Shown: positions 23,000 to 39,812 of the stretch, in pieces
Layout of the letters: the number at the start of each line of letters is the position of its first letter
How positions within the stretch are numbered: the first letter of the stretch is position 1
Source of the DNA: a candidate division WS6 bacterium OLB21
GTDB lineage: Bacteria > Patescibacteriota > Dojkabacteria > B142 > OLB20
Length of the DNA stretch: 39,850 nt
Assembly: GCA_001567305.1 (NCBI GenBank)
Contig: JYPD01000026.1
Span: 1 to 39,850, forward strand
Direction: 5' to 3'
Position numbers and translations under genes: made by a program
Notes under the pieces: model-generated
What the model was told of the DNA's origin: nothing
Databases searched by the model: none
The model's input: the letters and a program-made list of their open reading frames with translations, nothing else

Positions 23000-23823
23000 T
23001 CTCCAAGCATCTGCTTCTTGGGTGAAAAATATACTGTCCTGCCACCGATTTTAGTTTTCTCGACAGGGTTGTTTCCGTCTAGTGTTTTGCTTTTTCCGTA
23101 AACATTTAGTCTGTTAAAGTAATTTCCACCTTCTCCTTCTGCATCCAGATATGTTCTATCAATAAGGGTTGTGCCTCTAAATTCAAGTGCTTCATTAAGA
23201 ATCCTCTTTGCGTGCGAGACTATTTTTTTCGCCTTTGTCTCATCGATTCCCCGAGATGGTTGTAATGGATGAATTCTAGCGGCATAGAGCGTCTCGTTTG
23301 CATATATATTGCCAAGTCCAGCGACTATCGATTGATCCATTAAACTGGCATAAATGGACTTGGTTCTATTTGCCAATGCTTTTACTAGATAATCGGAATT
23401 GAATTCGTCACTTAGTGCATCGGGTCCGAGATTTAATAGTCCTTTGTACAGCGATTTAGAAGGCAGGTAGTGAAAGGTAGCAAATCTTCTGGTGTCCAGA
23501 AAGTTGAGAACCGCATCTTCAAGAAATAAACCCAAGCGATTGTGCTTGTGATCGTCAATTCTTTCGGCTAAATACAGCCGCCCTGTCATCCTTAGGTGCG
23601 AGATGATGGCTGAATTGTCGCTCAACTGAAAGCGAATAAATTTACCTATTCTGCTTAGACTGATTATTGTTTTATCGAACAATAATCTTTTCAAGTCTTC
23701 TTCTGAGTAAGGCTTTACCAAGCTTTCGCCTCCCGCTCTTAGAGAGAATCCAACAATTCTCTGACCCAAGACACCGGGCCTAATTTGGCGGACTATTGTT
23801 TCGACTTCTGGTAACTCGGGCAT
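22996..23823 (-). CDS. mutM: Formamidopyrimidine-DNA glycosylase, zincless form
   Basis: A 275-residue base-excision repair enzyme that removes oxidised purines and cuts the abasic site. The catalytic N-terminus MPELPEVETIVRQIRPG (Pro2 nucleophile, Glu3) is intact. So are the lysine of the beta-hairpin (GKFIRFQLSD), SHLRMTGRLYL and the helix-two-turn-helix region (QSIVAGLGNIYANETL). The C-terminal zinc finger has lost all cysteines: the usual PCxxCG ... CPxCQ appears as KTLDGNNPVE ... GGRTVYFSPKKQ, and the whole protein contains no cysteine. The Arg of GGRT is kept. It starts one base overlapped with the serS stop and is probably cotranscribed with it. Confidence 0.94.
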   Translation of the reverse strand: MPELPEVETIVRQIRPGVLGQRIVGFSLRAGGESLVKPYSEEDLKRLLFDKTIISLSRIGKFIRFQLSDNSAIISHLRMTGRLYLAERIDDHKHNRLGLFLEDAVLNFLDTRRFATFHYLPSKSLYKGLLNLGPDALSDEFNSDYLVKALANRTKSIYASLMDQSIVAGLGNIYANETLYAARIHPLQPSRGIDETKAKKIVSHAKRILNEALEFRGTTLIDRTYLDAEGEGGNYFNRLNVYGKSKTLDGNNPVEKTKIGGRTVYFSPKKQMLGD

Positions 23824-25187
23824 TACTTTCCGATATAGTCTTTGCCCATAAACTTCCTTAGTGCTTCTGGGACCTTGATCGTTCCATCAGCTTGCTGATA
23901 ATTGTCGATGATTGCAATTAACATTCTTCCCATGGCAACTCCAGTATCGTTAACTGTGTGCACATATTTTTTTGCTCCAGTTTCATCCTTGAATTTAATG
24001 TTTAGTCTCCTTGCCTGGTAATCGGTTGTATTGGTGTCTGTCATTACCTCCATAAACTCCTTTTGACCAGGAAGCCAGACTTCTGGATCAATTTGCTTAG
24101 AACTGGCCATGTAACCTGCGTCTCCTGTGCATTTAAGAACCAGATGATAAGGGAGTCGAAGCTCTTGTAGCAACCATTCATTAACTGACAGAAGTTCGTC
24201 AAATATTTTGTCTGATTCTTCGGGGTTACAGACAACATTCATTTCAATTTTATCGAACTGATGAAGCCTTTTTATGCCTTTGGTATCTCGTCCCCACGAT
24301 CCCGCCTCTGACCTAAAACAAGAAGTGTAAGCGAAAAGCTTTATAGGAAGGGTTTCTGCGCTTAGAGTTTTATCAATGAAGTACGAGAAGTTAGATGGCT
24401 CTGAAGAGCCAACAAGGTAGAGAGGCTTGCTGCTGTCTTCAAGATAGGTGTTGTCAATTTTATAGACCTGATCCACCTGTTCGGGAAAATGACTTGTTCC
24501 AAATAATGCAACTTCTCTAACCAGCAGGGGAGGGATTATTTGCTTAAATCCCATAGACAGTAATTTCGAAAAGAGTAATTGTTGGATTGCATACTGCATT
24601 AAAGCTAGGTCTCCAACGATGTATGTAAATCTTGATCCGGATACTTTTGCTCCCTGATTGTTATCTATAAGCTCAAGTGCTTCTCCAATCTCCAGATGAT
24701 GTTTAGCTTTAAGGTCTTCTTTGTCCCAATGCATTGATCTTGCAGGAAAAGGATTAACTGAATCTTTTACACGCACTTCGTTGAAGTTCTCTACATAACC
24801 ATTTGCAGGATCCCAAGCTCTGATTATTAGGTTGTCATCTTCTCCTTTGCCTTCGGGCATATCTTGATGCGGAATATTTGGCATCCACGCAAGTATCTCT
24901 TGCCATTCTTTCTCGATCCTGGTTAGGCTTTCTTCGATTTTTTGAGACTCTTGTTTGAGCTCTTGTCCTTTTTTTCTGATATCATCGCTTGTTGCTCCAG
25001 ATTTGCCTAAATTTGCTAGCTCATTCTTTTTGGTATTTAAAGCATCTCGTTGTTGAACTAGTAGCGTTCTCTCTTTATCTAGCTTAAGCCAAAGATCGAT
25101 ATTTGCCTTTTCGGGGTTGCCTCTTCCGCTATTGATGATAGACCGCATTCGCTCTGGGTTTTCTCTTATGAACTGTACATCAACCAT
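23823..25187 (-). CDS. serS: Seryl-tRNA synthetase
   Basis: A 454-residue class II synthetase that charges tRNA-Ser. The N-terminal ~110 residues form the long coiled-coil arm that contacts the tRNA-Ser variable arm (LDKERTLLVQQRDALNTKKN ... IRKKGQELKQESQKIEE). Motif 2 is FRSEAGSWGRDTKGIKRLHQ, with HQF following; motif 3 is AMGRMLIAIIDN (the family usually has GRTLVALLEN). ATG 23-30 bases after the terminator tract fits the leader. Expression is predicted to be controlled by an upstream T-box. fpg follows in the same transcript. Confidence 0.97.
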   Translation of the reverse strand: MVDVQFIRENPERMRSIINSGRGNPEKANIDLWLKLDKERTLLVQQRDALNTKKNELANLGKSGATSDDIRKKGQELKQESQKIEESLTRIEKEWQEILAWMPNIPHQDMPEGKGEDDNLIIRAWDPANGYVENFNEVRVKDSVNPFPARSMHWDKEDLKAKHHLEIGEALELIDNNQGAKVSGSRFTYIVGDLALMQYAIQQLLFSKLLSMGFKQIIPPLLVREVALFGTSHFPEQVDQVYKIDNTYLEDSSKPLYLVGSSEPSNFSYFIDKTLSAETLPIKLFAYTSCFRSEAGSWGRDTKGIKRLHQFDKIEMNVVCNPEESDKIFDELLSVNEWLLQELRLPYHLVLKCTGDAGYMASSKQIDPEVWLPGQKEFMEVMTDTNTTDYQARRLNIKFKDETGAKKYVHTVNDTGVAMGRMLIAIIDNYQQADGTIKVPEALRKFMGKDYIGK

Positions 25188-25194
25188 ATTTTTG

Positions 25195-25420
25195 ATATAA
25201 AAAAATAAAAATCCTTATGCCTGACTACGCTAATAGCCAAACATAAGGACTCCAAAAACGAGGAGTGGTGCCACCTCTTATATTATACTTTATTGACTAT
25301 TTAATTGTTGGAACTACTCGAAGCTAGCTTCGACAAATGCTCTTCACAGGCTTTCTCATCAAAATGGTTCGCGTACATTTTTCTGGGACTTACTTAAGCC
25401 TTTTCTGTCGAGAAGAACTT
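25195..25420 (-). promoter_or_regulatory. T-box riboswitch leader of serS
   Basis: Read on the minus strand. The T-box bulge TGGCACC (25267-25273) is flanked by an antiterminator stem ACTCC/GGAGT (25262-25266 with 25249-25253). Its TGGC can pair with the GCCA end of tRNA-Ser (discriminator G73). Next comes a competing terminator (25212-25249) and a T-rich tract. A candidate Stem I starts near 25411: TCGACA (25406-25411) pairs with TGTCGA (25330-25335), above which AGGCTT (25396-25401) pairs with AAGCCT (25348-25353). The internal loop holds AGC followed by A; AGC (25339-25341) is a serine codon. Uncharged tRNA-Ser would stabilise the antiterminator and switch serS on. The 3' half is convincing; the Stem I details are inference. 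Confidence 0.82.
25201..25249 (-). terminator. T-box intrinsic terminator before serS
   Basis: TCCTTATG (plus 25242-25249) pairs perfectly with CATAAGGA (plus 25212-25219), with an inner 5-bp stem GGCTA/TAGTC. A T-rich tract follows. The 5' arm overlaps the antiterminator (TCC is shared), as required for a switch. Confidence 0.88.
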
Positions 25421-25426
25421 ATGCGA

Positions 25427-25456
25427 ATGATAACAAGACTAAAGCTGTTTAGTCAA
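25427..25456 (-). promoter_or_regulatory. Promoter of the serS T-box transcript
   Basis: TTGACT (25451-25456), 18 bp, then TGT-TATCAT extended -10 (TATCAT at 25427-25432). The start would be about 25420, giving a leader of ~230 bases, normal for T-box genes. The -35 abuts the stop of the upstream cupin gene. Confidence 0.6.
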
Positions 25457-26239
25457 TTATTGCATATCTATATATGTGCCTCGATAATGATTTCGGCGAA
25501 TCTTCCAATGTCTTCTCTGAGTTGCGTATAGAGCGATCTTGTTGAGTCGATAGAGAAAGGGGGTCAGTGTGTTTTCTGGTTTAATTTTTTTTATTTTTGG
25601 AATGCCTCTGTAAACTGGGTTAAGAACAACCTCGAGTCGGGCGTTCTTTCTGATCGCGTAATAAGCAAGACCTCTTTCTTTTTGAATTAGCGAATAATCA
25701 ATAATATCATGACCCCTATGCATTCTTACAAATACAGCCGGGGATTCTTCTGTGTTAATAAATGTGTAAAAGTAACCTTGAGGTATTGCAAGTTTTTCGC
25801 CTCTTCTTAATGTGACAAGTAATCCTTCGTCTACCTCGGTGTGAAAATCATACTCACCTCTAGGTTTGTTTTTTTGCATGATTACAGTTAAGGTACCAAG
25901 GTGAACTTCGACCAATGTACTAATTCTATCGTCGGATAAGGGCGAATAGTAAACATGCGATTTTATGAACTCTACTCCCAGCAAACCCGAAGGAAGGCAG
26001 ATTAAATCGTAATAGAAGCCTTTCTGCATTATTTCGACATCTTCGATATGTGATACCTGTATATACTCCTCGTACACTTGTCTTGGGTAGGTAAGGTTTT
26101 TGTTTAATAGTGCCGGAGTAAGATTTTTAAGCATTATTTTTCTTGACTCGGTTGGGGTTACTTGGTCGTTAAAAAGGAGGGAATTGCTGTCGGGATCGAA
26201 GGATATGTCTAGACAGCATGTATCTTGCAAATTGACCAT
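25457..26239 (-). CDS. Cupin-fold protein, possibly glucose-6-phosphate isomerase-like
   Basis: A 260-residue protein with a cupin-like beta barrel around residues 80-180: YYDLICLPSGLLGVEFIKSH, VEVHLGTLTVIM, YDFHTEVDEGLLVTLRRGEK and LAIPQGYFYTFINTEE. The pattern of a polar barrel edge followed by a GEKLAIPQGYFYTFINT turn resembles archaeal-type phosphoglucose isomerases and sugar-epimerase cupins, but the metal-binding histidines are not all clear. The C-terminal ~70 residues are basic. It is preceded by a good promoter overlapped by an inverted repeat. The function is a guess; the fold is moderately supported. Confidence 0.55.
   Translation of the reverse strand: MVNLQDTCCLDISFDPDSNSLLFNDQVTPTESRKIMLKNLTPALLNKNLTYPRQVYEEYIQVSHIEDVEIMQKGFYYDLICLPSGLLGVEFIKSHVYYSPLSDDRISTLVEVHLGTLTVIMQKNKPRGEYDFHTEVDEGLLVTLRRGEKLAIPQGYFYTFINTEESPAVFVRMHRGHDIIDYSLIQKERGLAYYAIRKNARLEVVLNPVYRGIPKIKKIKPENTLTPFLYRLNKIALYATQRRHWKIRRNHYRGTYIDMQ

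Positions 26240-39720: not shown

Positions 39721-39812
<92 letters not shown>

Follow-up and report, generated by a model that had tools for sequence, protein, structure and literature searches.

Identification of the serS gene and its leader

The window analysed here, a stretch of 39,850 nucleotides from the candidate division WS6 bacterium OLB21 (contig JYPD01000026.1), encodes on its minus strand a seryl-tRNA synthetase of 454 amino acids (serS, 23823–25187), which was assigned by its family profile with a TIGR00414 match of 372.8 bits against a cut-off of 301.65 (NCBIfam). The nearest relatives of this SerS are found in Dojkabacteria/WS6, namely in OLB20 (G001) and PAT1 (G030). The ATG at 25187 is preceded by a leader at 25420–25188 of the minus strand and by a sigma-70-like promoter (25456–25427) with the -35 element TTGACT (25451–25456), a spacer of 18 nt and the -10 element TATCAT (25427–25432), from which transcription would start near 25420, about 233 nt before the start codon. 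As the upstream gene on the same strand, matching PF06560 (glucose-6-phosphate isomerase family), ends at 25457, the serS promoter sits in a short gap.

For comparison we compiled eight serS leaders, that of the window (G000) and those of G001, G002, G003, G004, G005, G006 and G015, representing all six genomes of the family of the window, two of which share a genus, and two other families of the class. The OLB20 leader is nearly identical to that of the window across the 5' half, and a -35 element of the form TTGACY is present in 7/8 leaders. Searching 86 genomes of the class with the pattern ACAGAAA, 14–44 bases, TACGCGAA returned these eight leaders, and thereby all six genomes of the family, together with four further matches that look like chance. 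Since MAFFT misaligned one of the helices (P2, see below), helix pairs were counted by hand on a manual alignment.

A T-box expression platform upstream of serS

The 3' half of the leader can adopt the canonical antiterminator form of T-boxes, GAGG-[UGGCACC]-ACUCC...GGAGU-CCUU, with the 5' strand of helix A1 (GAGG) at 25274–25277, the T-box bulge UGGCACC at 25267–25273 and helix A2 (ACUCC/GGAGU) followed by the 3' strand of A1 (CCUU) at 25245–25266. This 3' strand is overlapped by an intrinsic terminator (25199–25249, -27.8 kcal/mol) composed of a 17-bp hairpin (5' arm 25249–25233, 3' arm 25228–25212) and a T tract (25211–25199), and as CCUU is used by both structures the two folds are mutually exclusive. 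The pair recurs in the window leader and all seven homologues, and the bulge, which is also placed by the RF00230 alignment, is identical in all eight. Its UGGC is complementary to the GCCA end of tRNA-Ser, serine tRNAs having G73. With a z of -2.99, the fold of the full-length leader exceeds chance. A match to RF01479 (rli48) of 23.5 bits against a cut-off of 100 was discarded, as it covers the antiterminator/terminator part only.

A reading of this DNA made from its letters without database searches (the sequence-only reading) had proposed that serS is under T-box control, naming the TGGCACC bulge in an antiterminator stem, a mutually exclusive terminator with T tract and a promoter about 230 bases before the start codon, and all of these elements are borne out by the present analysis. 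A predicted transcription-attenuating T-box upstream of serS is therefore well supported.

A 5' stem-loop with a putative tRNA-elbow-binding module

The 5' half of the leader forms a stem-loop in the order P1, ACAGAAA, P2, an insertion, UGARA and the 3' strand of P2. In the window P1 is formed by GUUCUUC (25412–25418) and GAAGAGC (25339–25345), the latter including the AGC of the sequence-only reading, and P2 by GGCUU (25396–25400) and AAGCC (25349–25353). Both helices are kept through sequence changes in all eight leaders of the manual alignment: P1 occurs as GUUCUUC/GAAGAGC, GCUCUUC/GAAGAGC, ACUUCC/GGAAGU and UUUUCUCUU/AAGAGAAAA, among others, and P2 as GGCUU/AAGCC, GGUUU/AAACC, GGCUC/GAGCC, AAGCUA/UAGCUU and AGACUC/GAGUCU. 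Shuffles of single sequences were not decisive for P1 in individual leaders, and thus the support for this helix lies in its joint conservation over the leaders.

Between the helices lies AGAAA (25402–25406) as part of the invariant ACAGAAA, and UGAGA (25354–25358), which is UGARA in 8/8 leaders, precedes the 3' strand of P2. The double T-loop that binds the tRNA elbow in T-boxes has the consensus AGAGA and UGxRA (PMC7583486), and AGAAA and UGARA would fit its two T-loops. The same T-loop pair is seen in ordinary T-boxes of the class, for example upstream of proS in G003 (ACAGAAAGCUAAUAUUUUGAUGAGAGUUAGC). At the tip of the stem-loop all eight leaders carry the invariant 12-nt insertion UGUACGCGAACC (25366–25377), and among the 86 genomes of the class ACAGAAA and UGUACGCGAACC occur together in serS leaders only, the four chance-like pattern matches aside. 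UCN codons within this apical insertion were considered as specifier and rejected, as they are not aligned and lie inside a small hairpin in G001. Pairing of CGAACC in the leader with GGUUCG of the tRNA is possible, but GGUUCG is nearly universal in tRNAs.

A conserved and probably structured sequence without a match in Rfam was also noticed near radA in the genomes of the window (L338, ~690–860) and of OLB20 (L339, ~700–870). It contains TATGTACGCGAACCAGACCC and has 13 bases in common with the serS insertion.

A conserved serine codon beside a small hairpin

Downstream of the 5' stem-loop follows hairpin P3 (UCGAAGCUAGCUUCGA, 25318–25333), a perfect palindrome, and a hairpin of differing sequence is found at this place in G001, G002, G003, G005 and G015 as well. 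Just 3' of it lies the proposed specifier UCC (25310–25312) within UUCCA (25313–25309); a serine codon occupies this conserved position in every leader, UCC in seven and UCU in G004, although it must be added that this specifier was picked after inspection of the alignment. In most leaders P3 is followed by UUCC and then by a purine. The unpaired probability of UCC in the window leader is 0.75–0.93, while the predicted folds of G002 and G005 pair UUCC with GGAA near P1 and UUCC is partly paired in G015.

In OLB20 the glyS T-box reads GUU-GGC-AUACAA and the serS leader GUU-UCC-AUACAA, an identity of the flanks that was reached by 1 of 20,000 mononucleotide shuffles. A likeness is also seen in the window genome between GGUGAC-AUAAUUAAAUAUC of an aspS T-box and GUUCC-AACAAUUAAAUAGUC of serS, which is suggestive, although the sequence is AU-rich. 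Moreover, UCC is used by serS T-boxes of the phylum that have an ordinary or an ultrashort Stem I (G011, G018, G024, G043 and L078), and it accounts for 65% of the serine specifiers in TBDB, with AGC at 9% (PMC7778990). A short stem enclosing P3 and the codon (AUUU/AAAU, or AUUC/GAAU in G001) gave the impression of compensatory change in two sequences but was dropped, as the others have no such stem. Each of the P3 hairpins in the window (25318–25333), L340 and L379 is a perfect palindrome, and their sequences differ (TCGAAGCTAGCTTCGA, CAGTCGATCGACTG and AGGTGAGCTCACCT).

Comparison with known T-box classes

The promoters in 7/8 leaders place the start site close to P1, about 4–6 nt before it in most of them, and no basal helix that would join the 5' end to the segment after the codon was better than shuffles in the serS leaders. 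Therefore the basal Stem I helix and the K-turn appear to be absent, as does the opposite strand of the specifier loop. In the window leader we detected neither a basal Stem I helix nor a K-turn nor Stem II, and only a linker stands in place of Stem II and III; by eye, G006 has apparently kept Stem II, IIA/B and Stem III, and G002, G005 and G015 show a Stem III hairpin. The RF00230 search of the leader (321 bases) gave 15.1 bits with an E-value of 0.28, far below the cut-off of 93, so that this check did not recover the T-box, and the earlier suggestion of a divergent or minimal class, made as the Stem I was small and its AGUA and distal loop features were not clearly canonical, holds.

The leader has the UGGN bulge, the mutually exclusive terminator, the cognate gene serS, a serine codon and, by sequence, the double T-loop, while no specifier inside Stem I, no basal helix with K-turn and no gathering-level RF00230 score were found. 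We class the leader as a T-box on account of its expression platform, its gene and its codon, and its recognition half as a new variant. In the published classes I–IV the specifier is always inside Stem I (PMC10482949), and no precedent for a specifier outside Stem I was found in the T-box literature examined. With class I (B. subtilis tyrS type) the serS leader shares transcription attenuation, the UGGN bulge, the double T-loops and a codon followed by a purine (PMC10482949), but its specifier is outside a Stem I internal loop, its tip carries the 12-nt insertion, and neither basal helix, K-turn, AGUA strand nor Stem II was detected. With class II (B. subtilis glyQS) it has the elbow-binding module and, in the window leader, the lack of Stem II in common, and it differs in its serine specificity, its specifier outside the elbow-binding stem and its additional P3 hairpin. 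A small specifier-bearing element is also known from other T-boxes, but these have no elbow-binding module, need Stem II and are mostly translational. Finally, the ordinary serS T-boxes of the class (G011, G018 and G024) share the gene, the UCC specifier and the terminator, whereas their Stem I is long and contains GAA-UCC-A, and UGUACGCGAACC is absent from them.

Proposed mechanism and alternative readings

We consider it probable that the leader is a transcription-attenuating T-box which increases serS expression as uncharged tRNA-Ser(GGA) accumulates. The 5' stem-loop would stack on the tRNA elbow, UCC would pair with the anticodon GGA, and UGGC would pair with GCCA at the free end of the tRNA, so that the antiterminator is held and the polymerase passes; a charged tRNA would be unable to pair and to hold the antiterminator, and the terminator would form. 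In this model, unlike in the described T-boxes, a short 5' stem-loop of its own carries the elbow-binding module, and the specifier lies outside of it. More tentatively, and with slightly less than even confidence, we propose a new architectural T-box class with a free-standing elbow-binding 5' stem-loop, an invariant serine-specific insertion that may contact tRNA-Ser (perhaps at its long variable arm or T-arm) and a single-stranded specifier beside a separate hairpin, lacking the basal Stem I helix, K-turn and Stem II. Such a variant parts the elbow contact from the codon contact and would test the need for one rigid ruler, and UGUACGCGAACC offers a defined target for studies on the recognition by RNA of tRNAs whose variable arm is long.

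The choice of the tRNA differs from that of the sequence-only reading, in which AGC in a Stem I internal loop was the specifier and the tRNA-Ser(GCU) encoded in the window the ligand. This tRNA gene is indeed present (39721–39812) and ends in GCCA, GAAG-AGC-A resembles the usual context GAA-N-NNN-A, and AGC is found in the window and G001 and AGU in G015. However, no serine codon is present there in G002, G003, G004, G005 and G006, and the triplet (25341–25339) is located inside the covarying helix P1, paired with the 5' end of the leader, with an unpaired probability of at most 0.01 in the window. The supporting basal stem (25406–25411/25330–25335, UCGACA/UGUCGA) is broken by two A–C mismatches in G001 (UCAACA/CGUCGA) and has no counterpart in the other leaders. 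As AGC is helical and not conserved and UCY is kept in 8/8 leaders, the ligand is likely to be tRNA-Ser(GGA), which is encoded on another contig of the window genome (L275), and a T-box read by tRNA-Ser(GCU) appears unlikely.

Recognition of tRNA-Ser might also be independent of the codon: the leader would then read the elbow, the GCCA end and the long variable arm of the tRNA, UGUACGCGAACC would provide the contact specific to serine, and UCC would be incidental. The long variable arm is common to serine tRNAs, UGUACGCGAACC is the most conserved part of the leaders and found with ACAGAAA only upstream of serS, and an ordinary specifier loop is absent; yet the UCY codon is kept throughout and stands in a glyS-like context in G001, and the specifier is needed in the T-boxes whose structure is known (PMC10482949), which makes this reading improbable as well. 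The poor Rfam score and the several missing domains could finally point to a plain attenuator or a decayed T-box that has lost its response to tRNA or responds to a different ligand, for instance SerRS. Against this, P1 and P2, the 12-nt core, the codon, the UGGCACC bulge and the two competing folds have been retained in all eight leaders and the promoter in seven, so that we regard this reading as very improbable and prefer the T-box responding to tRNA-Ser(GGA).

T-boxes in Patescibacteria

The sequence-only reading had expected a T-box to be unusual in Patescibacteria. This agrees with the literature, as T-boxes were confined to Firmicutes, Actinobacteria, Chloroflexi, Deinococcus-Thermus and two Proteobacteria in an earlier survey that covered 242 genomes (PMC2494555), and our literature search, with most subscription papers outside its reach, revealed no paper joining T-boxes with Patescibacteria. 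It does not agree with the genomes: RF00230 matches with E up to 1 were obtained in 64 of the 86 genomes of the class (three over the cut-off) and matches with E up to 1e-5 in 117 of 380 sampled genomes of the phylum (13 over the cut-off). As a control, the search also finds matches in Bacillus, Lactococcus, Corynebacterium, Thermus and Deinobacterium. The genes downstream of the matches include proS, glyS, ileS, tyrS, trpS and aspS. Judged from these matches, T-boxes are common and widespread in Patescibacteria, with most of them being hidden by the standard Rfam cut-offs, which suggests a possible route for sensing amino-acid shortage in very small host-dependent bacteria.

The aspS T-box of the window genome (G000:C22:18013-18166, L163:4014-4167) scores 40.6 bits, below the Rfam cut-off, has GAC in its specifier region and precedes a nondiscriminating aspS (L163:4177-5994), whose product carries a C-terminal YbaK/tRNA_edit fusion (Pfam PF04073, residues 479–599). 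In many T-boxes of the class (L191, L200, L205, L206, L208, L220, L223 and L224) Stem I is ultrashort and the specifier lies in a hairpin loop, for example AUC for ileS, GAC for aspS and UGG for trpS. Several of them possess intrinsic terminators, whereas the class III T-boxes of Actinobacteria act mostly on translation. The T-box matches L231 (G030:C11:47605-47792), L213 and L234 adjoin serS on the opposite strand, the gene downstream of L231 being a class II tRNA synthetase that resembles glyS. In OLB20 a T-box with GUC in a hairpin loop (L167, G001:C3:530409-530575) is followed by a gene resembling that for shikimate dehydrogenase, a possible NUDIX gene and a gene that resembles valS, which suggests an operon under the control of valine.
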